Below are positions 4,752 through 38,655 of a stretch of DNA of 64,000 nucleotides, one piece after another. The stretch covers positions 6,535,814 to 6,599,813 of the forward strand of contig NZ_CP118164.1 of assembly GCF_028748185.1 (NCBI RefSeq), in the 5' to 3' direction. The DNA comes from Bremerella sp. P1 (GTDB taxonomy: Bacteria > Planctomycetota > Planctomycetia > Pirellulales > Pirellulaceae). Position 1 is the stretch's first letter. Every line of letters starts with the position of its first letter. Position numbers and translations under genes: made by a program. The notes below the pieces were generated by a model. It saw only the letters and a program-made list of their open reading frames with translations, was not told where the DNA came from and made no database searches.

Positions 4752-5036
4752 GGCGAATGGTCTCCAATTAGGTATCCCCACATGTTACATAGACTTACTC
4801 ATTCAGGCGGCTGGGGAATCGATCAACTATGAAGATAACAGAGGAGACGCGATCTTACATCTGAGATTACCCCGAGCTTTGTTAGAAAAGCACAAACACG
4901 GGGCTCTTACTCTCGTCGTCATTTGTTAACCCGACCATCTGCGGAAATGGAACCGGAACTATTGAGCCGGACCTCGGGACGGAGTACGTTGATCGAAAGA
5001 AGTTTTGCCCATTTCATGTCCCCAATTTGATTCTGG

Positions 5037-5744
5037 ATGGCCATCATGTTTCGATCGATCGCGTTTTCTATTGGGTTGAGTACCGTTTTGCTGGCGTTTA
5101 CAGCAATGGCAGAGGACGCGGATTCTTCAGCCAGTCCGCTCGATACTCTCATGTGCGAGCGTGGCAAGCTTCTGCTGAGCGACTCCTTTGAAACTGGGCC
5201 CAGCAAGGCTTGGCGAATCGCCAAGGGAAAATGGGAAAGCGTCGACGGCGCGACGCAGGGAGCGGAGCTTAAGGAAGACAATCATGGTGCGGTCATTCGC
5301 GTGAATCGACCCGTTCGCAATTGCGTGATTCAGTATTCCTTCAAACTGGATGGCACCAAGGGAACGACATTGAGCATCAACGACGCCAAGGGGCACAACT
5401 CGCGAGTCATTATCAATGAAAGAGGTTTTTCTGCTCGCAAGGACGATCACGACCACGCCGGACCAGACAAAGCCAAACTACTTCAGACCGTCAAAACGAA
5501 GATTACGCCCGGCCAATGGCACACCTTGGTCGTCGAGTCCAACGGGCCTGAGTTCCTGGCTCGTCTGGATGGGAAACAGGTTGCCTATGGTTCCCACGAA
5601 GCGATCGACGTCGACAAAACCAACTTCGGCCTGACGGTTGGCGGCCAGTCCGCGTCCTTCAAGAATTTGAGCCTCTGGGAAGCGAAGCCCAAGAGCGACT
5701 GGTCGGCCACAAAAGCAAAGATGATCTCCCAGTCGACCAAGTAG
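5037..5744 (+). CDS. Secreted LamG/DUF1080-like hypothetical protein
   Basis: A 235-residue protein with an N-terminal signal peptide (hydrophobic core IAFSIGLSTVLLAFTAMA, likely cleaved after AMA). The rest looks like a concanavalin-type beta-sandwich of the LamG/DUF1080 (3-keto-disaccharide hydrolase-like) kind: a DSFETG opening, KGTTLSINDAKGHNSRVIIN, a GQWHTLVVESNGPEFLARLDGK strand pair, and NFGLTVGGQSASFKNLSLWE at the end. Such proteins are abundant exported products of planctomycetes, and most have no proven substrate. ATG at 5046 is an equally possible start. It converges with the next gene across ~60 bases. Confidence 0.75.
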   Translation: MAIMFRSIAFSIGLSTVLLAFTAMAEDADSSASPLDTLMCERGKLLLSDSFETGPSKAWRIAKGKWESVDGATQGAELKEDNHGAVIRVNRPVRNCVIQYSFKLDGTKGTTLSINDAKGHNSRVIINERGFSARKDDHDHAGPDKAKLLQTVKTKITPGQWHTLVVESNGPEFLARLDGKQVAYGSHEAIDVDKTNFGLTVGGQSASFKNLSLWEAKPKSDWSATKAKMISQSTK

Positions 5745-5804
5745 GTTGCCCGGGAAGTCGCCTAGATCACGGCAACGGCTGGCTAGTGTCTTTCGCGCCG
5801 TTGA

Positions 5805-7205
5805 CTACGTCAGGCTGGCCAGCATCGTTTTTGCCGCTTTCGTCAATTGGCGACCCGTGGTGGGCAGAAAGTAGGGGCGATCAAGGATCTTGGGACCCAC
5901 GATCGCTGCGTAGTCATGCTGTTTGTACGCGTTAGGATCGGTCACGTAGCCGACTTCATCGTCCGAGTAGCCTACGACAAACGTATGCTCAAACGGCGAT
6001 GTCTTGCGAATTTCGATCCCGTAATAGCTATAAAGTTCGGTCGGCTGAAATAGCATGCCGATTGGGCCAAGGGAAATAGCGGACATCGGTGCGGCGAGCC
6101 CCTTGGGTTCGGTGCTCCAATCTTTTGCGGCGTGGTACCAATCAGCGGCGAACGTTGGATCAACCCAAATTCCACTGCTGCAAGCATCCGGTTTGGTGCG
6201 GTATGCCTCGACATCTTGAGCGACTCGCTGGTGATCATACGGTAGGAGGACCTCGCCGCTGACCGGCCGAATTTCTCGGACAGGGACAGAGACCGCCGAG
6301 CTGAGCGAGTCTTTGAAGGCAGCATAAACGGCGTTCGCCGACTGATCGGGGGCACCAATCCATCGTTTGCCATCGCCAGGGTTCACGTCACCAGCATGCC
6401 CTTGCCAGAAGCCCGGCTCAACTCCTTCGGAATCCTTCACCATGTTCACGACCATGCCTACCCAGTCTGGCCCGGAAAGGGTGTCGGTGTAGCAGACTGG
6501 ATGCGAAGAAAAGTGGTACCAGACGATATCTGGCTTTCCGCCTGTCCGCTGAAAACGTAGAGTTTGCAAGAGCGTGTCGACCCAACGCTCGTCGTCCGTT
6601 GCATTCTGATCGAACTCAAGATCGGTCCGATAATTTGGTGTGGTTCGATTGAAGTTCGCCCCTTTAGCTTGAGCCTTTCCTAGATACAGCTCCGCCGGAG
6701 CGAGATCGGCGTGGGCTAATTCAATCGAACGTACGACCGCATCGATCGTCTTGGCCATGTAAGCTTCTGGGATCTTACCCCACTGCCGCAGATGAATGAA
6801 TGACGGAGTCGAGTGCGTGTGCGTCGCCGTGATGTGGACATTATTCGCAGGTATGCCGAGTTGGCGCTGTACGCGAGCTTGTACCTTTCGGGTGAAATCC
6901 GAGGAGACGGCCAGAGCGTCGAGCGAAACGAGAGCGACTTCGACCTCGCCACAGCGCAATGCGATCGCCCGAGACGCGGTCGACTGACGAACGCCTGTTG
7001 CAACACGTGGGTTATCCGGCGGTCGATGGAAGCCTCCCAATTCAACGCCATTAGGAACGGTAGTATCGACGATACCTTGTCCAGCCTTGAATTCCGGCGA
7101 AGTAGATGAAGCGAACAACGGAGCAGTACTTGCAGCAATTCCCCAAGCAACGCTACTGCCGAGCGTAGCGCCGAGAAACGAGCGACGGTCAATTGGGCGG
7201 TTCAT
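5805..7205 (-). CDS. Neutral/alkaline non-lysosomal ceramidase-domain protein, Tat-exported
   Basis: This 466-residue protein starts with a twin-arginine signal (DRRSFLGATLGSSVAWG), so export in folded form is likely. The body matches the N-terminal domain of neutral ceramidases. It has GIVDTTVPNGVELGGF near the start, the metal-binding segment ITATHTHSTPSFIHL, and the WQGHAGDVNPGDG loop corresponding to the family's GD.NP motif. In eukaryotes and some pathogens the family hydrolyses ceramide. Planctomycete members often lack the C-terminal domain, as here, and their true substrate is unknown. The N-terminal domain call is solid; the ceramidase reaction is inference. Confidence 0.85.
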   Translation of the reverse strand: MNRPIDRRSFLGATLGSSVAWGIAASTAPLFASSTSPEFKAGQGIVDTTVPNGVELGGFHRPPDNPRVATGVRQSTASRAIALRCGEVEVALVSLDALAVSSDFTRKVQARVQRQLGIPANNVHITATHTHSTPSFIHLRQWGKIPEAYMAKTIDAVVRSIELAHADLAPAELYLGKAQAKGANFNRTTPNYRTDLEFDQNATDDERWVDTLLQTLRFQRTGGKPDIVWYHFSSHPVCYTDTLSGPDWVGMVVNMVKDSEGVEPGFWQGHAGDVNPGDGKRWIGAPDQSANAVYAAFKDSLSSAVSVPVREIRPVSGEVLLPYDHQRVAQDVEAYRTKPDACSSGIWVDPTFAADWYHAAKDWSTEPKGLAAPMSAISLGPIGMLFQPTELYSYYGIEIRKTSPFEHTFVVGYSDDEVGYVTDPNAYKQHDYAAIVGPKILDRPYFLPTTGRQLTKAAKTMLASLT

Positions 7206-7568
7206 GAGCGTTTCTGCAGGGAGGAGGAGAGTTGGCAGGCAAGATTATCTATTAGCAATTGTGGCGCAACATGGAAGCATTTTAAAGAATTCCGCGTCAT
7301 TCCCTTCGCGTATTTCCCCATAAGGTCAATTGTCGATTCTAGGCATATGAGGGGGGAGGCGTTGAATCCGACCTTCCCAGAATTTTCCGATGGACAAGCC
7401 AACGGCGTCTCCTTTTAATTGAAACTGGGAACGACGAATGGACCATCGCTGTACGCGAAAGTTCGCCTCCCCACTCCAAGCGTGGTCAGGCTGAAGCGAC
7501 TTTCATATGTCGTCATATGTCTAGACGGCGCTTCCCGCCAAATGACTCCACTCAAAAGACCTTCCGCC
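7206..7568. other. Divergent intergenic region, no gene seen
   Basis: About 360 bases separate the divergent ceramidase-like gene and the 1559-residue fusion gene. An open frame extends upstream of the chosen start at 7569 (to 7419), but its 50 extra residues look non-coding and lie ahead of a clear signal peptide. I see no RNA gene, terminator or recognisable operator. It presumably holds both promoters. Confidence 0.5.
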
Positions 7569-10500
7569 ATGTTGCGATTTCATTTATTCGCTGCGTTCTT
7601 TCTATTCTTGGCTTGTGGCCAGTCCATTGCCGGTGACGCGAATCGCCTAACCTACCTCGACGAATTCTGCGATCCCTACTATGTCGGCCGCGACTTTCCC
7701 AAGTTGACGACCCCGCAATGGATCGGGGAAGAGGGCGTAGAAGGGGTGGTCGTCCTGGCGATCGACGATTTGCGCGACACGGCGAAGTATGAAGCGTATC
7801 TGCGACCGATCTTCGAACGTCTGAAGGAGATCGAGGGCACCGCCAGTGTCAGCATCATGACGAACTCGGTCGATGTGGACGATCCGCTGTTGCAAAAGTG
7901 GTTGGCCGAAGGCGTAGCGCTCGATGCTCATACGGCGACACACCCTTGCCCATGTCTTCAGAAAGGGGACTTTGAAGCAGGAAAGAGCTCCTACGAAGAT
8001 TGCGTCGACATGCTGTTTTCCATTCCGAATAATCGACCGGTCGCGTTTCGTTTTCCCTGCATGGACTCAAAGAACACCCCTAGTCCACGGATGATCGCCG
8101 AAGTTCTGGCCAACGTCACCGCCGACGGCAACTTTCTCCAGATCGACTCGTCGGTCGTGATCGCACATACAGCGGATGATCCGGAGCTTCCACGAGACCT
8201 AGTTACCGATGCCGACGGCCAGGGACGTTTTACCAAGTACATTCCCTTTCCCTCGTTTGTAAACAAGGTTGAAAACTACCCCTATCCCTACGTGATCGGC
8301 CGCAAGATTTGGGAATTTCCGTGCACCATTCCTGACGATTGGCAAGGGTTCCATCTGCAGCAACCTGGCAATCCCAAGACCGTGGAAGATTGGAAAGCAT
8401 CGATGGACGCCGCCGTCTTAAAGCAAGGAACGGCTTCGTTCGTCTTTCATCCGCATGGCTGGATTCGTGCGGAGCAAATGGTGGAAATCGTAAACCATGC
8501 CGTTGACCGGCATGGTGATCGGGTCGCATTCCTGCAGTTCTCGCAGTGCCTGGATCGAGTGAATGAGCACCTATTGGCTGGGCAGCCATTGCGAGATGCA
8601 AAGGGAGAAGACAACGGCGTTCGACTGCTCGATTTGAATGACGATGGCTACATGGACGTCGTGATTGGCAATGACCAGTTGCAAATGACTCGAATTTGGC
8701 GGCCAGTCGAACGAAGTTGGTTGGAAGTTGAGTTTCCCGCAAAGCTGGTAACGACCGCTGAAGATGGCTCGCCACGAAAGGAACGGGTCCGGTTTGGTAT
8801 TCAGAACGGCGAGGTCATCGCCTTAGCGTCCGATGAGTCAATTCGTTCGGCCTGGCGTTTCCGCAAAAATGCCTGGACAGAAGATCCGGAATTGTTGCAT
8901 GGCTTGGAGCTTGATGGAAAGCCAGTACAAATTGCCGCGGGGGGAATTGATCAAGGCGTACGACTTCGCGATCTCAACAATGACGGGAACTGCGAATTGA
9001 TCGTCGGAGCGGCCAATAAGCAGGCAATTTTCCAGTGGAATCGTCAAGAGCGAGTCTGGAAGCATCTTCCGTTCGTGTTGCCTGAGGATACGGAGATTAC
9101 TTTTAGCGCCGGACTAGACGCCGGGCTGCGATTCGTGGATGTGGATGAAGATGGCTTCGACGATGTCGTCTTCTCTGACGAGATTCGTTATTCGCTGAGT
9201 CTGTTCCAGTCCATGGAAAAGGGATGGTCACGCCAGGTCTCATCGGGCTTGCGCAATGATGCTGGGGCGATCCCCATGATCTCGCGTCTGGGGAAGAACA
9301 ACGGAGCCTGGTTTGCCGACAATTCCATTTGGGTTCAGAACGAGGACACTTCGCGTCTACCTGACGGAGTCGAACGGATGTCGTTCGTGGACATGCTTCG
9401 CCCTATCGAGACCCAGCCGAAGTCACCCACTGCTTCGCACAACACAATTCGCGTGCAGCCTGGATTTCGGATTGACCAGGTCGCCACCGAACCGCTGGTA
9501 ATGGATCCGGTTTCGTTCGATTGGGGACCGGACGGAAAGTTCTGGGTTGTGGAAATGGCCGACTACCCTCTGGGCATTGATGGTAAGCCGGGAGGTCGCG
9601 TCCGATACCTGCAAGACACTAATGGCGACGGAACCTATGACGAGTCGGTACTATTTTTGGAAGGTTTGAATTTCCCGACCGGTGTGATTGCTTGGGGCAA
9701 GGGCATTATCGTGTCGGCGGCGCCTGAAATCTTCTATGCGGAAGATACAGACGGAGATGGCACCGCGGACAAACGCGAGACGCTGTATGTCGGCTTTCAT
9801 GAAGGCAATCAACAGCACCGCGTCAACGGCTTTTGGCGTGGCCTCGATAACTGGATCTACGTCGCCAATGGCGATAGCGGGGGAACCGTCCGTGCAGTGA
9901 AAACGGGAAAGACACTCAACATCAGCGGCCGCGATCTTCGGATTCGCCCCGATACCGGGGAGATGGAGGCGGTGACCGGGCAAAGCCAATATGGCCGCGC
10001 ACGGGACGATTGGGGAAACTGGTTTGGGTGCAACAACTCACACGCAGTCTACCACTTTGTCACCGATGACCATTACTATCTGCGGAATCCAAGCGTTGCC
10101 GTACTGAGACCGATTCAGCGTATCGCCTCGGTCGACAATACGCCGATCTATCCCCGAAGCCGCGTTCTGAGTCATTGGTCTGGATATCTTCCGCCCGCTC
10201 CCGGAGAGCCAAGTCGCTTTACCTCCGCCAATGGAATCTGCATCTATCGTGACGAACGGTTTGGCCCAAGCTTCGACGCCACCGCGCTGGTTAGCGAACC
10301 GGTTCATAACCTGATTCACCGACATCAACTGATTCCGCAGGGAGTCACCTTCGCCGGTCGCCGTGCACCGGGCGAGGAGCGCAGCGAATTCGTCGCCTCT
10401 TCGGACTCGTGGTTTCGTCCGGCGGCAATTCGCACAGGTCCCAATGGCGCAATCTGGTTTGCAGATATGTATCGTTTGGTCCTGGAACATCCCAAGTGGA

Positions 10501-12248
10501 TCGATGATGAGGAAGAAAAGCGACTCGATTTGCGAGCAGGCCATGACAAGGGTCGCATCTATCGCATCTTGCCAATCACGGAGTCAGCGTCAGCACTTCC
10601 TCGCTTCGATAAGTTGTCCAATATGGAATTGACCGAGCAGTTGGCAAGCCCCAATGGATGGCGTCGTGACATGGCGCAGCACCTATTGATTGAACGCAAC
10701 GCCAGAGATGTCATTCCGGCACTGGCCAATTTGGCACAAACGTCCGAGAGTCCATTCGGACGCCTGCATGCCCTGTGCACGTTGGATGGTTTGAACGCGC
10801 TCTCAAGCGATGTTGTCGCCTCGGTACTTGCCGATCCTCATGCAGGCGTACGACGTCATGCAATTCGACTGGCTGAATCGAAGCTTGACACCGATGCCTC
10901 ACTCTATGAGCCGTTGGCGGCGCTACTCGACGACCCAGACCCGTTGGTAGCTCTTCAACTCGCCTATTCACTTGGCCAATGGCACAGTTCAGCTTCAGGA
11001 CAGTTGCTGGGCCAATTGACGATAGCATATCACAATGAGCCGCAGATCGTCTCGGCCGCGCTAACTTCGATGAACTCGGATAACTTCCTCTCCGCCTACT
11101 CCATAATTCTTTCTTCCAGCGAGTCCACTGAGCTGTCGCCGGAAACACTGGTCGAAGTGTTACGCGTCGGCGCGGCATTCAAGCGGCCGGAAATCGTGGA
11201 AACGATGGCAGCATCTCTGATGCAGGAGGACGCTTCGGCGGTGCCTGTGTGGAAAAGAACAGCACTCGCACAGTTGCTCGGGGCTTTGCGAAAGAACGGA
11301 GTCGCCTGGGAAGACTCGCTCAGTGCCGATACTCTCGCCAAGGTGTCGGCTCTCTTGGATGCAGCGCACGATCGACTGAAGGGCTTGGAATCGAACGACG
11401 AAGATCTTAGAAGCGATATCAACCTGGTCCTGCAGGCAGCAGGGAATTCCAAAGACGAGATCCTGTTGGTCACATCGCTGCTTGAACCGCGGAATCGATC
11501 AAGCCTACAGATTGCAGCAATCCAGGAGTTAGCAAAGGTCAATTCGGAACTTGTTGCTCAAGAATTGATTGCAGGCTGGTCAGGTTATACACCAGCGGTT
11601 CGAGCTGAATTGTTAGAGGCCGTATTGGCCCGCACCTCTTGGTGCAGAATGCTACTCGCGGAAATAGAGAAGGGAAGAATTCATGCCTCCGATCTTGGCT
11701 CGACCGCACGAAAACGCTTGACGGAGCATCCCAATAAGGACATCGCCGCGCTTGCCAATACCCATCTCGCACACGGTTCGACGGCATCCCGAAACGAGGT
11801 TGTGCAGCGTTATCAATCCGCGTGGCTAAAGAACAAAGGTGACGTCCACAAGGGACGCGAGCTATTTGCAAAACATTGCAGCGTCTGTCATCGCCTGGAA
11901 GGAAACGGCTTTCTCGTGGGGCCTGATCTGGCTGGCCTGACGAACAAATCTCCCGAAGCGCTGGGGGTAGCGATCCTTGATCCGAATCGTGCTGTGGAAG
12001 ACAAGTTTCTCGAGTACGCGGCCATGACGGACGATGGTCGTACTTTCATAGGAATGCTTGCATCAGAAAGTGGTACGAGCGTCACGTTACGCGGCCAAGG
12101 CGGCAAAGAGGAGACGGTATTGCGCGAGGAAATTGAACAACTACGCAGTACCAGCCGATCGCTCATGCCGGAAGGATTCGAGAAGGTAATGGACCCGCAA
12201 GCACTGGCCGATTTGATCCGATACGTCGCAGAGGCCAAAGCGGAATAG
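7569..12248 (+). CDS. Giant fusion: polysaccharide-deacetylase-like + FG-GAP + PVC-type dehydrogenase domain + HEAT + cytochrome c
   Basis: The 1559-residue exported protein starts at the ATG preceding a signal peptide (LRFHLFAAFFLFLACGQSIAG). In order it has: a polysaccharide-deacetylase-like fold at ~55-270, with IDD at 65-67, an HTATHPCP motif and FRFPCMD; FG-GAP-like calcium-loop repeats (DLNDDGYMDVVIG, DLNNDGNCELIVG, DVDEDGFDDVVFSD) at ~330-560; the PVC-type membrane-bound dehydrogenase beta-propeller domain at ~630-1000 (DWGPDGKFWVVEMADYP, NGAIWFADMYR); HEAT-like helical repeats at ~1010-1400; and a C-terminal cytochrome c with CSVCH at 1437-1441 and a likely LMPEG Met ligand. The dehydrogenase-HEAT-heme order is common in planctomycetes. 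The N-terminal deacetylase addition is the unusual part. Likely periplasmic or surface electron-transfer enzyme on carbohydrate. Confidence 0.9.
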   Translation: MLRFHLFAAFFLFLACGQSIAGDANRLTYLDEFCDPYYVGRDFPKLTTPQWIGEEGVEGVVVLAIDDLRDTAKYEAYLRPIFERLKEIEGTASVSIMTNSVDVDDPLLQKWLAEGVALDAHTATHPCPCLQKGDFEAGKSSYEDCVDMLFSIPNNRPVAFRFPCMDSKNTPSPRMIAEVLANVTADGNFLQIDSSVVIAHTADDPELPRDLVTDADGQGRFTKYIPFPSFVNKVENYPYPYVIGRKIWEFPCTIPDDWQGFHLQQPGNPKTVEDWKASMDAAVLKQGTASFVFHPHGWIRAEQMVEIVNHAVDRHGDRVAFLQFSQCLDRVNEHLLAGQPLRDAKGEDNGVRLLDLNDDGYMDVVIGNDQLQMTRIWRPVERSWLEVEFPAKLVTTAEDGSPRKERVRFGIQNGEVIALASDESIRSAWRFRKNAWTEDPELLHGLELDGKPVQIAAGGIDQGVRLRDLNNDGNCELIVGAANKQAIFQWNRQERVWKHLPFVLPEDTEITFSAGLDAGLRFVDVDEDGFDDVVFSDEIRYSLSLFQSMEKGWSRQVSSGLRNDAGAIPMISRLGKNNGAWFADNSIWVQNEDTSRLPDGVERMSFVDMLRPIETQPKSPTASHNTIRVQPGFRIDQVATEPLVMDPVSFDWGPDGKFWVVEMADYPLGIDGKPGGRVRYLQDTNGDGTYDESVLFLEGLNFPTGVIAWGKGIIVSAAPEIFYAEDTDGDGTADKRETLYVGFHEGNQQHRVNGFWRGLDNWIYVANGDSGGTVRAVKTGKTLNISGRDLRIRPDTGEMEAVTGQSQYGRARDDWGNWFGCNNSHAVYHFVTDDHYYLRNPSVAVLRPIQRIASVDNTPIYPRSRVLSHWSGYLPPAPGEPSRFTSANGICIYRDERFGPSFDATALVSEPVHNLIHRHQLIPQGVTFAGRRAPGEERSEFVASSDSWFRPAAIRTGPNGAIWFADMYRLVLEHPKWIDDEEEKRLDLRAGHDKGRIYRILPITESASALPRFDKLSNMELTEQLASPNGWRRDMAQHLLIERNARDVIPALANLAQTSESPFGRLHALCTLDGLNALSSDVVASVLADPHAGVRRHAIRLAESKLDTDASLYEPLAALLDDPDPLVALQLAYSLGQWHSSASGQLLGQLTIAYHNEPQIVSAALTSMNSDNFLSAYSIILSSSESTELSPETLVEVLRVGAAFKRPEIVETMAASLMQEDASAVPVWKRTALAQLLGALRKNGVAWEDSLSADTLAKVSALLDAAHDRLKGLESNDEDLRSDINLVLQAAGNSKDEILLVTSLLEPRNRSSLQIAAIQELAKVNSELVAQELIAGWSGYTPAVRAELLEAVLARTSWCRMLLAEIEKGRIHASDLGSTARKRLTEHPNKDIAALANTHLAHGSTASRNEVVQRYQSAWLKNKGDVHKGRELFAKHCSVCHRLEGNGFLVGPDLAGLTNKSPEALGVAILDPNRAVEDKFLEYAAMTDDGRTFIGMLASESGTSVTLRGQGGKEETVLREEIEQLRSTSRSLMPEGFEKVMDPQALADLIRYVAEAKAE

Positions 12249-12477
12249 TTCGACATTCTCCCCTCAAGTCCGCACTTACCGGGCACGACCTGATTTTCTA
12301 AATGGGTGCCGCCAATGGACTGGGTGCTAGACATTTCACTTTGACGCACCGTCATTCACTGGGTACTTACTGGACAAAAACTTTAGGAGTACTCAGGGGA
12401 GTGATGTATTATTGGGTTAGGGATGAAACTCGCTGCCTCGGACGGAATCTTGCTTTTCTCTGTCTTGGGTGTGTTCG

Positions 12478-14214
12478 ATGTTTCGTTTTCCAAAAGTCAG
12501 TGCAGAACGAACTCGTGAAATTGTCCGCGAGGTTTCCCACGGCTCAAAGGCTCGTGGACGATTCTTTGTATTGCTAATCACCGCATCGATGATTGCATCG
12601 TTTGGGTTGATTGCCAACAGTACAGCTGTCATTATTGGTGCGATGCTGGTGTCACCACTGATGACACCTATTTTCGGGGCAGCATTGGGAATCTTACGGG
12701 GCAATCCACGCTTGTTGGGCTGGTCGCTCTGGAGTGAAGCAATCGGAATCACTCTGGCAGTGGGGGCCGCATATCTGGTCGGGATTCCACAGCTTTCCTT
12801 CGGTGATGCCACACCGGAAATGCTCGCACGCACCCAACCAAACCTGCTTGACCTGCTTGTCGCTGTGTTTGCTGGCTTCGCCGGTGCCTATGCGATGCTC
12901 GACGAGCGTGTGAGCCCGGCGCTTCCTGGTGTCGCTATTGCGACTGCGATCGTTCCGCCACTTGCGACTTGCGGACTTTGCCTGTCGTTAGGGGCATGGT
13001 CAGGCGCCGGTGGAGCGATGCTTCTCTTTCTCGCGAATTTCGTGTCGATTCTTTTAGTGGCATTGGCAGTGTTTTGGGCTGGCGGATTGGCCCGCAAAGG
13101 CATGTACTCCCGGAGACGAGTGTTCGGCCATATTGGATTGACGACGACTGCGTTTGTAGTCGTTGTTGTGATTTTGACGAACTCTTTGCTGCGAATCACA
13201 AAGGACAGAGCTCTTGAGAGCGGGATTCATAAGACCCTCGAAGAAGAATTAGCGCTAAAGCATGGAACAGACCTAGAGGAACTCATGCATTGCCGTACGT
13301 CGAAAGGTGTACAAGTATTGGCGACAGTACGGTCGCACAGCACGATCTCTCCTAGATGGGTTACAGCGATCGAAGACCGTCTTGAGTCTGCGCTTGGCGA
13401 ACCAGTTGACTTAGTCGTTCGGACAATTCGATCTCGCGATGTATGCGCCCTCGGTGCGTCGCTTCAGGTGGTCCACCCTAACCTTGATGGAGATTTCCTG
13501 GTTGAGATGTCTGACGACTTTGAAGCCCGTGAATCACTAGCCTCTCAGGTCGTGCGCGAGTTCTTTGAGGATGAACCAGGGTTTGAACTAACCCGAATTG
13601 AGTACGGAATCTCCAATAACCATGAAGGCGTGATCGTTGCCTACGCCAATTCCATTCGTCGTCTATCCAAACAAGAGTTCGGTGCCTTGGAGTCTGTTCT
13701 GCAAGAGAGATTTAATGACCCGGCTCTGCACTTGTTTGTAAGCATGAATGTGGCGAGCCTGCAGGGTCGAGATGGCCCTCAGCTAGTCGAATGGAGCAAT
13801 GTTCAATCAGCGGCGCCCGAGAGGGCGGGGGAACTACCCGGCATCAGAGAGGCGATTCGCATCGCAGTCAAGCATGAGACAAACAACGAGCCCATTCGCA
13901 TGCACTTCAATTGGACAGGTGATCACTGGAGAGCTTTGGTCGAGGTATTTGGCGGTGAGGGATTGTCACCATCCGCAGTCGCCAAGATACGAAGCGAATT
14001 GCCTGAACAGCTTGCTCAGCGTGTAGAACTGCTAATCTGGCGCAAAAGTGATTTCGTTGTGACTGAAGAGGGTTATTCGGACTACGACACACTCGTGGAT
14101 TCGGACCTATTGCAACGTAGCGAGCAACTCCGTGGGCTATTTCAGGTATCGACATTGCCGTCAACAACCACCTCGCACAAAGATGCTGCAGATTCCTTGT
14201 TATTGGATGAGTAA
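12478..14214 (+). CDS. DUF389 family membrane protein (TIGR00341-like)
   Basis: A 578-residue protein from ATG 12478; a GTG at 12469 would add three residues. The first ~230 residues are a DUF389 membrane domain. The hallmark AVIIGAMLVSPLMTPIFG follows the first helix, and PALPGVAIATAIVPPLATCGL lies in a later one, with about six hydrophobic segments in all. The remaining ~350 residues are soluble and mixed alpha/beta, unusually long for the family. The molecular activity of DUF389 is not established. The stop is followed three bases later by the start of the cyclic-nucleotide-binding/patatin gene, so the two are almost certainly co-transcribed and may act together at the membrane. Confidence 0.9.
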   Translation: MFRFPKVSAERTREIVREVSHGSKARGRFFVLLITASMIASFGLIANSTAVIIGAMLVSPLMTPIFGAALGILRGNPRLLGWSLWSEAIGITLAVGAAYLVGIPQLSFGDATPEMLARTQPNLLDLLVAVFAGFAGAYAMLDERVSPALPGVAIATAIVPPLATCGLCLSLGAWSGAGGAMLLFLANFVSILLVALAVFWAGGLARKGMYSRRRVFGHIGLTTTAFVVVVVILTNSLLRITKDRALESGIHKTLEEELALKHGTDLEELMHCRTSKGVQVLATVRSHSTISPRWVTAIEDRLESALGEPVDLVVRTIRSRDVCALGASLQVVHPNLDGDFLVEMSDDFEARESLASQVVREFFEDEPGFELTRIEYGISNNHEGVIVAYANSIRRLSKQEFGALESVLQERFNDPALHLFVSMNVASLQGRDGPQLVEWSNVQSAAPERAGELPGIREAIRIAVKHETNNEPIRMHFNWTGDHWRALVEVFGGEGLSPSAVAKIRSELPEQLAQRVELLIWRKSDFVVTEEGYSDYDTLVDSDLLQRSEQLRGLFQVSTLPSTTTSHKDAADSLLLDE

Positions 14215-14217
14215 ATA

Positions 14218-14436
14218 ATGAACGACAAGCCCACATCCAATGGCGACGATACTTTGAAATACATGAGGTCGCACTCGTACTTTCATGGTCTAAGTGATGA
14301 ACTCCTTGAGAGAATCTCTGGGTGTATTTCTGTCAAGCGATTCGCGACAGGGGATATAATCTATCGTGCAAATCAAAGAATTGCAGAAGTCGGATTCATC
14401 GTCGGAGGTCGGCTCAAAGGTGTGATCAACGATTAG
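14218..14436 (+). CDS. N-terminal half of a cyclic-nucleotide-binding domain, ended by an in-frame amber codon
   Basis: A 72-codon frame that reads as the first half of a CNMP_binding (CAP_ED) beta-barrel: HSYFHGLSDELLERISG, then VKRFATGDIIYRANQRIAEV and FIVGGRLKGVIND. It stops at TAG (14434-14436) in the middle of the barrel. The downstream frame continues in the same phase with GGVERLFRF and the second half of the same domain. I therefore read it as the 5' part of the gene at 14443-16074, broken by a nonsense mutation (a C-to-T change from CAG would suffice), by readthrough, or by a sequencing error. Alone it cannot fold as a complete cNMP domain. Confidence 0.6.
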   Translation: MNDKPTSNGDDTLKYMRSHSYFHGLSDELLERISGCISVKRFATGDIIYRANQRIAEVGFIVGGRLKGVIND

Positions 14437-14442
14437 GGCGGC

Positions 14443-16074
14443 GTGGAGCGATTGTTTCGTTTTGCAGAACGAGGCGAGTCTATCGGCCTGATCTGGGCAG
14501 CGATGTCGGAACCCTTACCGATGTCGGCCGTGGCAGTCGAGCCTTCGACCGTTCTCATGCTGGACTATGAAAAAGCCTTGGAGTTAACAGCACAATCTCC
14601 CGAACTACGTTCGCACTGGAATCAAAAATTAGCTGGCTCAATCCGATCACACTTGATCGGTGATTCAAAGATTTCAGACACGTCAATCGTCGTTGTTTTC
14701 CATCAATCGGAACAGACTCGCCCGTTAACCAAGCGGCTCATCAACAGGCTATCGAAGGCAGGTGAGACGCTTGGCATATTTAGTGACAACGAGGTCCACA
14801 ACTACGACGATTGCACGAAGGTACGCAGTCTATACAACAATGAGCGTTTGATATCCGAAGGAGAAATCCACGAGCAGATTGGAGGTTGGGGAAATCCAGC
14901 TCGAATCATCGTCGATTTGAAGGCTACCATTGACGACGACGTTGCATCCCGTCTTATTGGCCTCAGCCAGCACATCTTGTGGGTGGCTGATGAGAGTAAT
15001 TGGCAAGAAGCGATACAGCGTTTGAGGGAACTCGAGGCCGATTCACCGGCTGTACGCGACAAAGTTGCCTTCATTTGGAATCTACGTAGCGGCCCTACGG
15101 CTCCATTTGCACCGGAGATTGCGTCTGTTGCCCAAAGAGATATAAAGACCCCAGCGGACGACTCTAGCTCCGCGACAAACACGCTTGATCCGGGAGTCGA
15201 GGGGGTAATTCACCATCTTCGCGGGATCAGTGTTGGGTTGGCGCTCGGCGGTGGTGCGGCTTTGGGCATGGCCCATCTAGGAGTTTTGCGTGCACTTGAA
15301 CAGGCAGGTGTCGTCGTCGATCGAATTGCAGGCACGAGTGCCGGAGCAATGGTCGGACTGCTTTGTGCGGCAGGTCATAGTCCAGACTACCTTGTCGATC
15401 GATTTACCGAAGACTTGCAACCAGGTTGGTTATTTCGAATGCTGCCAAGGGGCGGTTACTGGTATCTGACTTACAAGTATCGACGTGGGAAGTTTGATCC
15501 AATGCTGCGCAAATACTTAAATGATTTGTGCATCGAGCAGCTGCCGGTTCCAGCCTCTGCAGTGACTGTTGACCTGGTCAGTGGCGATGTAATTGTCCGC
15601 AATGTCGGCGACGCTGTACACGGCATACTGGATAGCATCAATCTGCCCCTGTTGTCCAAGCCGATCCTTCGAGACGGTCAGGCACTGATTGATGGAGGCT
15701 GCGTGAACAATGTTCCTGCGGATGTGTTGGTGTCTCAGGGGTGTAACCTCGTCATTGCCGTTGATGTTCTTGCAAAAATCGACAAGGAATTCGCTGGCCT
15801 CCGACCAGATACACCGGTGAGCCAGGGTAAGCCGCCGAATTCAGTACAGACTTTACTGCGTGCTTATGCAGTACAGAGTTACAACATGAATTCGGTAGGC
15901 TCGCTCCCAGCTGATGTGCGAATCGAACCTGATACGAGTGGATTCAGCATGTCTGAGTTTACCAGTGCGTCGGAACTTGCATCGATCGGCGAACAAGCTA
16001 CTCGCGAAAAGCTCTCAACAATTCAAGCCCTTCTCAAACGCCTGGGAAGTACGCCTCATCTTGATCCGGTTTAG
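14443..16074 (+). CDS. Patatin-like phospholipase (NTE-like), C-terminal part of the cNMP-patatin gene
   Basis: The 543-residue frame begins at a GTG two codons after the amber stop and carries the second half of a cyclic-nucleotide-binding barrel (RGESIGLIW to LMLDYEKALEL), a ~190-residue linker domain, and an intact patatin domain. The oxyanion-hole loop is LALGGGAALGMAHLGVL, the nucleophile elbow is IAGTSAGAMVG, and the dyad aspartate is in LIDGGCVNNVPADVL. The full reconstructed protein (14218-16074) matches neuropathy-target-esterase-like bacterial lysophospholipases that join cNMP sensors to patatin. All catalytic motifs survive, so the fragment could be active if translated by reinitiation. 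It follows DUF389 with 3 bases between and ends at a strong terminator. Confidence 0.85.
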   Translation: MERLFRFAERGESIGLIWAAMSEPLPMSAVAVEPSTVLMLDYEKALELTAQSPELRSHWNQKLAGSIRSHLIGDSKISDTSIVVVFHQSEQTRPLTKRLINRLSKAGETLGIFSDNEVHNYDDCTKVRSLYNNERLISEGEIHEQIGGWGNPARIIVDLKATIDDDVASRLIGLSQHILWVADESNWQEAIQRLRELEADSPAVRDKVAFIWNLRSGPTAPFAPEIASVAQRDIKTPADDSSSATNTLDPGVEGVIHHLRGISVGLALGGGAALGMAHLGVLRALEQAGVVVDRIAGTSAGAMVGLLCAAGHSPDYLVDRFTEDLQPGWLFRMLPRGGYWYLTYKYRRGKFDPMLRKYLNDLCIEQLPVPASAVTVDLVSGDVIVRNVGDAVHGILDSINLPLLSKPILRDGQALIDGGCVNNVPADVLVSQGCNLVIAVDVLAKIDKEFAGLRPDTPVSQGKPPNSVQTLLRAYAVQSYNMNSVGSLPADVRIEPDTSGFSMSEFTSASELASIGEQATREKLSTIQALLKRLGSTPHLDPV

Positions 16075-16225
16075 TCTCGCCGGCACTTTGATCAAGTCCG
16101 ACGCAATTCGGCAGTCTACGAATCTCGTCCTGAAAACTTGCGTTCATACTGTTCACAAACGAGCGCCGAAACAGCCCAGAACAGAGGATCTGGTGAGACG
16201 ACTTCGCGTAACAGATAGCGCATAA

Positions 16226-16260
16226 AAAACGCCGCGAATCAAACTGATTCGCGGCGTTTT
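16226..16260. terminator. Bidirectional intrinsic terminator between patatin gene and tRNA-Arg
   Basis: A perfect 15-bp inverted repeat (16226-16240 with 16246-16260, loop AAACT) has a GC-rich core flanked by A runs on the left and T runs on the right. It therefore works in both directions: for the patatin gene from the left and for the minus-strand tRNA from the right. Confidence 0.9.
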
Positions 16261-16267
16261 CGCTCAG

Positions 16268-16341
16268 CGTGGGTGGAAGGGCTCGAACCTTCAACCTTCG
16301 GTTTCGTAGACCGATGCTCTATCCAATTGAGCTACACCCAC
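16268..16341 (-). tRNA. tRNA-Arg (anticodon ACG)
   Basis: On the minus strand the sequence folds as a full cloverleaf. The 7-bp acceptor stem is GTGGGTG/CACCCAC, followed by a D arm with TAGCTC..GAGC. The anticodon stem TCGGT/ACCGA encloses loop CTACGAA (anticodon ACG, read as inosine-CG after deamination), and the T arm is GAAGG-TTCGAGC-CCTTC. The discriminator is G and no CCA is encoded. The 3' end runs into the shared terminator at 16226-16260. Confidence 0.97.
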
Positions 16342-16517: not shown

Positions 16518-17096
16518 TTACTTCGGCATTTTCCGGAAATTACTTTTCTGCGGCATCTTAAAATCGGTGGGTCCGCCAGCTTCCAGGTCTAGCAGTCGCT
16601 TTTTCAGGCTGATTCCCTGCGGGCTGGTGAACCCGCCGATCTTGTTGCCGGCTGAAATGACGCGGTGACAGGGGATGATCACGGGGATGCGATTCTGCGA
16701 CATAGCGGTTCCAACTGCTCGGGCTGCGCCAGAGCGACCAGCAAGCGTGGCAAGTTCCCCGTAGGTTACGACTTCGCCATAGGGAATACGCTGGCAGGCC
16801 TCCCAAATCCGCTGCTGAAAAGGGGTACCATGCGACAGGTCTGTGGGAACATCCGCAAAATCGATACGGATGCCAGCAGCATAGTCGACGACGTCTTGGA
16901 TCAAGTCCCGCTGGGCTTCTGTCAGATCATCCGGAAGCCGAGATCGCTTTCGCTTATCGCGTTTGGCAACCCAGGCGAATCGGCTCAGTTTTTCGCCAAT
17001 CCAGCTGATTTCCGCGGGGCCCAGAGACGTTTCCAGCTGAACCGTTCTCAGGGAAAGACTGTCTTCTTTAGAAGTTACGGCATATTGAATCGTCAC
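16518..17096 (-). CDS. ogt: Methylated-DNA--[protein]-cysteine S-methyltransferase
   Basis: The 192-residue protein repairs O6-alkylguanine by transferring the alkyl group to its own cysteine. The active-site motif is IPVIIPCHRVISAGNKIGGF, with the cysteine in PCHR. The preceding helix-turn-helix contains FQQRIWEACQRIPYGEVVTYGELA, the usual substrate-binding signature, and RAVGTAMSQN follows. The N-terminal ~80 residues form the small Ada/Ogt-like domain. Translation starts at GTG (17096). There is a C-terminal extension of ~25 residues after LLDLEAG. A monocistronic gene between the tRNA and a divergent gene. Confidence 0.95.
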   Translation of the reverse strand: MTIQYAVTSKEDSLSLRTVQLETSLGPAEISWIGEKLSRFAWVAKRDKRKRSRLPDDLTEAQRDLIQDVVDYAAGIRIDFADVPTDLSHGTPFQQRIWEACQRIPYGEVVTYGELATLAGRSGAARAVGTAMSQNRIPVIIPCHRVISAGNKIGGFTSPQGISLKKRLLDLEAGGPTDFKMPQKSNFRKMPK

Positions 17097-37422: not shown

Positions 37423-37944
37423 CTATCCTTCGACCGGATTGGCCGGGGTTTGCAGCACCAATTGATAGAACCCCAGGTCTAACCAGCGGCCGAATTTGTA
37501 AGCGGCTTGACGGATGGTTCCTGAAAGTTCAAACCCCAGTTTCTCGTGCAGGCGAACACTTCCTTCATTGCTCAGATCGATGCCTCCGACAAGCACGTGC
37601 ACATCATGCTGCTGGGCCGTTTCGATCAGGCGTTTCATCAGAATCTCGCCAAGACCTTTGCCGCGATGATTCTTGTGGACGTAAACCGAGTGCTCGACGG
37701 TGTACTTGTAGGCAGGCCAGGGACGAAACGTGCCGTAACTGGCAAAGCCCATCAATTGGCCGGCTTCATCCACCAAGCCGATTACCGGAAAGTTACCGGC
37801 CTTCTTGCTGGCAAACCACGTCACCATGCTTTCCAACGGCCGCGGATGGTAATCATAGAGCGCCGTGGAATGGACGATCGCTTCGTTGAAGATCTCTAAG
37901 ATCGCTTCGGCGTGCTCTTCGTAGGTGCAAGAAACGAACTGCAT
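37423..37944 (-). CDS. GNAT N-acetyltransferase (phosphinothricin acetyltransferase/MddA-like)
   Basis: A 173-residue GNAT enzyme. The acetyl-CoA pyrophosphate loop is NHRGKGLGEILMKRLIE, preceded by EHSVYVHK and followed by HVLVGGIDLSNEGSVRLHEKLGF. The early part LYDYHPRPLESMVTWFASK and a 'GFASYGTFRPWPAYKYT' segment are characteristic of the Pat/YncA subgroup, which acetylates phosphinothricin, methionine sulfoximine or related amino acids. Physiological substrate is unknown. Start ATG 37944 is preferred to the upstream frame at 37977. Confidence 0.9.
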   Translation of the reverse strand: MQFVSCTYEEHAEAILEIFNEAIVHSTALYDYHPRPLESMVTWFASKKAGNFPVIGLVDEAGQLMGFASYGTFRPWPAYKYTVEHSVYVHKNHRGKGLGEILMKRLIETAQQHDVHVLVGGIDLSNEGSVRLHEKLGFELSGTIRQAAYKFGRWLDLGFYQLVLQTPANPVEG

Positions 37945-37986
37945 ATCGTGGTGGTCTCGAGGCAGATGGGAAGTCAATGGTTCCCA

Positions 37987-38655
37987 TCATACCACAACTC
38001 CACGGGGAGAAGCGGTTGGAGCCACGCGACGGGCACCTTCGGTGAAGCGACCATTCTTCAGGAAGTACAACGTCTCTTGCAGAGATTCCGGGTGGCGCAA
38101 GATGCGATTATGCCCACACGGCACCAGCACATGATCGGCCTGGTTTGCGATATAGGTGCTTTCCAGGTGAACCAGCAGATCCTGCGTCCCAGCAATCACA
38201 CCGGTATCGAGCGATTCCACCATCGGCAGGCGGTGCACCAGGCTATCCGGCGAAGTAGAAAGATCGGACAGGGCAGGGCAGAGGTAGTGCAGCCCCTTGG
38301 CAGCCAGATAAGCGACTCGCGACCCATGATTGGGCGGTGCCAACATGACGAGTCTGCCTGGTTGGTGCCATTTCATATCCGCGAGCACGGCCCGCAAGAT
38401 AATGCCTCCCATGCTATGCGTGACGAAATGCAACGGCTCAGGCGAATCGGCTTCACTTTCTAAAAACGCACGCAGTCGCTGGGCGTGGTTCATCACGCTG
38501 TTTCCCACGCTGCGGTAACACCACCGTGTCGTCTGGTAGTTGTTACGCTTTAGAAATCGATTGAGCGACCCCAGCACCCACCGGTTGCCTGACAGTCCGT
38601 GAATCAAGATAACCCGCTGCTTGCGATCGAACTCTTGATGGTCTCGTGCTTCCAT
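37987..38655 (-). CDS. Alpha/beta hydrolase, lipase-like
   Basis: A 222-residue cytosolic alpha/beta-hydrolase. It begins RVILIHGLSGNRWVLG (oxyanion loop) and has the nucleophile elbow THSMGGIILRAV (Ser in HSMGG), a helix after PPNHGSRVAYLA, and a probable catalytic His in VPCGHNRIL. Members of this small group are often called palmitoyl-protein-thioesterase/lipase-like esterases. No signal peptide is visible. Monocistronic as far as can be seen. Confidence 0.85.
   Translation of the reverse strand: MEARDHQEFDRKQRVILIHGLSGNRWVLGSLNRFLKRNNYQTTRWCYRSVGNSVMNHAQRLRAFLESEADSPEPLHFVTHSMGGIILRAVLADMKWHQPGRLVMLAPPNHGSRVAYLAAKGLHYLCPALSDLSTSPDSLVHRLPMVESLDTGVIAGTQDLLVHLESTYIANQADHVLVPCGHNRILRHPESLQETLYFLKNGRFTEGARRVAPTASPRGVVV

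Follow-up and report, generated by a model that had tools for sequence, protein, structure and literature searches.

Proteins with a cNMP_binding domain and a patatin domain belong to the NTE/PNPLA6-like class. Animal NTE has a transmembrane segment and several cNMP domains. In planctomycetes, proteins of about 615–650 amino acids, such as that of Singulisphaera sp. GP187 (L161), share both Pfam domains and their order with the gene analyzed here. Each of these planctomycete proteins is encoded by a single open frame, whereas the gene analyzed here is interrupted, lies next to a DUF389 gene, and has a leucine in its oxyanion motif. Compared with the NTE/PNPLA6-like class, it has the full cNMP domain (read across the stop, with an X at the stop codon) and the Ser-Asp dyad, but it lacks the basic residue of the oxyanion motif, an uninterrupted frame, and the canonical phosphate cassette.

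Among solved structures, the best match of the protein is PlpD (PDB 5fqu; 133 bits), with which it has the patatin fold in common as judged by sequence. The match to RssA (NF007623) reached 75.4 bits, which is below the curated cut-off of 272 bits. The relatives of our gene differ from PlpD and RssA in having an extra barrel and a long linker. Ordinary nonsense pseudogenes likewise contain one stop in a recognizable frame and have intact relatives elsewhere; our gene differs from them just in its apparent youth and its intact remainder. The SV_7m_r remnant (G204, L131) has the same DUF389 neighbor in the same orientation, is the sister of our gene in a tree, and is also a broken patatin partner. 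However, decay has gone much further in this remnant, which has several stops, lacks a patatin domain, and has a sense codon at the site of our stop.

Our analysis indicates, with good though not full confidence, that the locus holds one ancestral gene of the cNMP-binding-type and patatin kind, the second member of a sporadic DUF389-patatin pair, which was recently inactivated by a single nonsense mutation. The stop most likely reflects a commonplace loss of gene function in the fairly recent past and not a new kind of genetic control.

The interrupted frame and its domains

The window is the whole stretch of 64,000 nucleotides that was analyzed. Its genome is a single contig (6.96 Mb, 99.68% complete) and encodes four further patatins. 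On the plus strand, the frame at 14218–16074 has a sole interruption, a TAG at 14434–14436. The N-terminal piece (14218–14436, plus strand) starts with ATG, encodes 72 amino acids that contain the beginning of a cNMP-binding-type barrel, and ends at this TAG; it is homologous to all of the 29 closest relatives. The C-terminal piece (14443–16074, plus strand) starts with GTG and encodes 543 amino acids, which comprise the second half of the cNMP-binding-type domain, a linker, and the patatin domain. ORF coordinates and translations confirmed the statement of the earlier note that two frames of the same phase are parted by this codon. The frame after the TAG is open for 545 codons and has no other lesion.

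When the pieces were joined with an X at the stop, the product matched PF00027 with 41.9 bits (profile positions 2–88 of 89; cut-off 27.5) and PF01734 with 94.8 bits (profile positions 1–190 of 191). The PF00027 domain spans the TAG at 14335–14595 (plus strand; residues 40–126), is seen only with the X at the stop, and is the one cNMP match in the joined protein (Pfam). The patatin domain lies at 15238–15729 (plus strand). The N-terminal piece alone gave no match in the Pfam search, and the C-terminal piece alone matched PF01734 with 95.2 bits and PF00027 with 20.6 bits, which is below the cut-off and covers profile positions 39–88 of 89. The alignment of the joined frame was gapless across the stop in 29/29 relatives. 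Because the joined frame matches PF00027 and PF01734 in full length and the separate pieces do not, sequence comparison indicates that both frames are one gene by descent, not a chance juxtaposition. The earlier view of one complete protein, split by an amber codon inside the cNMP-binding-type domain and followed by a patatin frame that is otherwise open, is thus supported.

The stop codon site and the decoding of TAG

We searched the genomes of the family with the C-terminal piece and found matches at E ≤ 0.001 in 99 of 241 genomes, many of which were short patatin-motif matches. At each of the 29 closest loci, the gene is one frame of 614–731 codons; the position of the TAG is taken by a sense codon, and the alignment close to it is gapless. 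Relatives with two separate proteins at this site, which had been named as a possible refutation, were not seen among these 29 uninterrupted loci. A wider set was obtained from 69 loci (29 + 40) by removing six broken or partial copies (L128, L130, L131, and L145–L147) and 12 repeats, which left 51 full-length relatives; because complete frames were selected, this set cannot count broken copies. The stop column of these relatives contains 14 residue types (I, F, S, R, P, L, D, V, G, E, M, N, A, and K) and one gap. Glutamine was found there in 0/51 relatives and in 0/28 named relatives, some genes being common to both sets. CAG is therefore unsupported as the ancestral codon, and the CAG-to-TAG transition proposed earlier was not borne out.

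Other members of the family are broken at different positions. The copy in CA13 (L128, the same gene as L177; approximately L128:4603–6411, minus strand) has an in-frame TAG at another site; its GGG motif is shortened, and an AGTSAG-type repeat has expanded at its nucleophile elbow. Both this copy and that of SV_7m_r have a sense codon opposite the stop of the window. Two of 33 named loci (L186 and L187) matched in several segments with broken frames. The copies in CA13 and SV_7m_r together with these two loci indicate, at the level of sequence, that broken copies of the cNMP_binding and patatin family occur elsewhere through other lesions. The two genomes appear to be Planctomycetes bacterium CA13 (G147, SJPJ01000001.1) and Planctomycetes bacterium SV_7m_r (G204, CP036272.1). 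The CA13 genome also carries intact relatives of the patatin gene elsewhere.

Amber suppression or a programmed read-through would agree with the clean frame past the TAG, and the first in-frame stop is also TAG in the broken copies of SV_7m_r and CA13. However, no CUA, UUA, or UCA anticodon appeared in the ARAGORN results, which covered all 70 Rfam tRNA hits and listed 76 distinct tRNA genes; an unusual tRNA could escape such searches, and the initial look scored 150 of 217 candidates. The best PylS match was 24 bits against a cut-off of 178.15. Of the 44 long non-overlapping ORFs of the window, 16 end with TAG, and a stop at the same site was seen in none of the relatives examined. Since no CUA-anticodon tRNA and no PylS were found and TAG routinely closes genes of the window, suppression or read-through appears unlikely, and we regard a programmed or suppressed TAG as a very improbable explanation of this gene. 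The earlier suggestion of suppression or regulated read-through is not sustained by these results.

We also asked whether a TAG breaks another gene of the window. The three candidate stops (23036, 38 kb, and 49 kb) each separate neighboring genes, namely PdxJ and DHDPS, a sulfatase and a bestrophin, and an alpha/beta hydrolase and an acetyltransferase-like frame. At 37426–38655 of the window (minus strand), a distinct GNAT acetyltransferase-like frame lies, in phase, behind the stop of an alpha/beta-hydrolase-like ORF; the best model for this second frame is ArsN1 family B (108 bits, under the 210-bit cut-off).

Two tRNA arrays were observed elsewhere in the same genome. The larger has 22 tRNA genes in 5.4 kb (L086:5751–11135, about C1:1939750–1945134), many with low Rfam scores; it includes a tRNA-Cys call with anticodon ACA, contains no CUA anticodon, and looks like a mobile-element tRNA array. 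The smaller has 6 tRNA genes in 0.65 kb (L087:8306–8949, about C1:6297306–6297949), mostly with low Rfam scores.

Conserved residues and the age of the break

It had been claimed that all patatin catalytic motifs are intact. This is correct for the Ser of GTSAG (GxSxG) and the Asp of DGG, which are present in the window and in 51/51 relatives. It is not correct for the oxyanion motif GGGAALG, in which joined residue 349 is L in the window, whereas the residue is basic in all 51 full-length relatives (47 R, 2 H, and 2 K). A motif check by eye may overlook a change of this kind.

The residues of the phosphate cassette (GE...R) are needed for cyclic-nucleotide binding. We compared the window by eye with the solved cAMP-binding protein 7pza and found that the E and R of its cassette face L and L. 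The canonical cassette is also absent in the relatives inspected (by eye, uncounted). Because this cassette is absent, a sensor role cannot be taken as given even for the uninterrupted gene, and the label of cyclic-nucleotide sensor is doubtful. The same holds for the idea that the loss disconnects a lipase from its sensor. A cNMP_binding match does not necessarily mean a cyclic-nucleotide sensor.

With the 29 nearest relatives as the reference, the protein of the window differs at 9 of 93 patatin columns that are conserved and at 7 of 20 such linker columns. Both counts lie beyond the range obtained by leaving out each of these relatives in turn, a pattern that would suggest decay, but the gene of the window is a distant branch. 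In a divergence-matched test, 4/53 highly conserved columns were changed, compared with 2–8 of 53–57 in ten intact lineages, and in the next conservation class 9/69 were changed, compared with 12–31 of 68–71. In the 51-relative set, the window was changed at 1/28 conserved columns, and the changed fraction was higher in 7 of the 50 other rows. The comparisons thus give a mixed picture of relaxed constraint, and the matched test and the 1/28 test speak against reading it as a sign of old decay. With its remainder open and no relaxation seen in the matched test, the break would, as far as these comparisons can tell, have to be recent, unless selection still acts on the patatin fragment, which may then still be used. 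The lesion-free frame after the TAG and the result of the matched test also speak against inactivation.

The same features would suit a functional split, in which reinitiation at GTG 14443 gives a working patatin lipase without the N-terminal half of the barrel. The GTG begins 6 bases past the TAG, the 543 codons are intact, the conserved columns are unrelaxed, and patatins without a cNMP-binding domain exist, as PlpD (314 amino acids) illustrates. However, the product would start within the barrel, since the match to PF00027 begins at profile position 39; none of the 29 relatives is split there; and the leucine in the oxyanion motif departs from a residue that is basic throughout the 51 relatives. 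We consider such a split unlikely.

Under the preferred reading of a recent inactivation, the single nonsense mutation would end the gene as a one-piece protein. Ribosomes leaving the DUF389 gene would translate 72 codons and then stop. Some of them may restart at GTG 14443 and produce a patatin fragment whose barrel is without its first half, and this fragment is possibly residual. As translation would be truncated and would yield at best a fragment without a complete barrel, the patatin gene would be in early decay and the DUF389 partner would be the part retained.

The DUF389-patatin pair and its occurrence

The DUF389 membrane-protein gene (PF04087, 134.4 bits; 12469–14214, plus strand) is intact, is co-directional with the broken gene, and ends 3 bases before it. 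Downstream of the broken gene, an inverted repeat bordered by runs of A and of T was noted by eye at 16228–16259; it is likely an intrinsic terminator and lies ahead of a tRNA-Arg (ACG) gene at 16267–16341 (minus strand).

We compared this locus with 8 other genomes of the genus, one of which is just 68% complete. A DUF389 relative at E ≤ 0.001 was found in 0/8 genomes, and a full-length relative of the patatin gene also in 0/8; G003 gave a patatin-motif match only (59 residues, 36%). The tRNA-Arg gene and the gene at 16518–17096 are arranged alike in all seven genus loci compared (all but that of G005), and the genes on the 3' side of the tRNA (window 12249–16266) differ in all seven. The gene at 7419–12248, on the far left, is common to G004 only (about 81% identity), and G004 has PSCyt/DUF1553 and DUF1501 genes between the common flanks in place of the pair. 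Third-position GC was 0.523 for the DUF389 gene and 0.486 and 0.514 for the two pieces, compared with 0.585–0.707 for five flanking ORFs. The absence in the genus, the variable side of the tRNA, and the third-position GC suggest that the slot is variable and that the pair in it occurs sporadically, as a cassette, and was probably acquired. The pair may possibly be mobile.

No integrase gene was noticed in the version of the variable slot (12249–16266) found in the window. We also looked for an attachment repeat derived from the 3' end of the tRNA and rejected it: the 40 bases at this end have no exact match of at least 10 bases in 5001–16260.

In the 241 genomes of the family, DUF389 relatives were found in 10 at E ≤ 1e-40 and in 3 at about 58% identity or above. 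These three closest carriers are the window's own genome, G144 (58% identity), and SV_7m_r (57% identity over 563 amino acids). In SV_7m_r, the DUF389 gene is directly followed by a patatin-gene stub, which is 53% identical to the gene of the window over 118 columns. This stub has a TAG nine codons beyond the stop site of the window and later TGA and TAG stops; no patatin domain was found in it. In G144, a match to the joined protein is absent from the remainder of the 9,861-base contig. Several near-identical short repeats, some of them head-to-tail, follow the stub of SV_7m_r at about 4000–4700 of L131 (plus-strand coordinates). These repeats may have helped to destroy the patatin gene.

No DUF389 match lay beside the other patatin loci (29 + 40, and 33 named) within the sequence examined, and an initial contig scan with a single protein as query gave no match. 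There were 95 plasmid records with a DUF389 match, none covering 80% of the query. In a phylum draw of 392 genomes, which is a sample, matches at E ≤ 1e-60 occurred only in the window's own genome; relatives do occur, however, in Isosphaeraceae and Gemmataceae. A literature search returned no paper on point, and the matching text in PMC12419801 concerns DUF3892, not DUF389.

In a quick tree of 67 rows without bootstrap, the gene of the window and the SV_7m_r stub, which fills 19% of the columns, were sisters (SH-aLRT 98). They adjoin a clade of the Isosphaeraceae/Gemmataceae type (SH-aLRT 94, where the program's star marks 95), away from the other Pirellulaceae copies.

These results also bear on a base-call or assembly error, or a polymorphism in the population. 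A one-base difference in an open, constrained frame is what such an event is expected to look like, a second genome of the species was looked for and none was found, and a base-call error is the main alternative to inactivation left by the sequence tools. However, the genome is complete as a single contig, and the sister gene was broken independently and the gene is absent from the genus, so the loss is a local trend. An error or polymorphism accordingly has, in our judgment, a low probability.

A recent inactivation remains the preferred reading of the locus. Tentatively, and with a rather small chance of being right, it may be one instance of a patatin partner that is repeatedly shed while DUF389 is kept, as the TAG of the window, the stub of SV_7m_r, and the missing neighbor in G144 would suggest. 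If this were true, an unregulated or orphan lipase would be selected against once the pair enters a new host, and DUF389 would work alone. As a mechanism the finding is minor: nonsense-broken genes in variable genome slots are common, and its use is as a dated example. In two genera, different lesions have disabled the patatin member of the same rare pair with DUF389 still open, which hints that the patatin is dispensable or costly.
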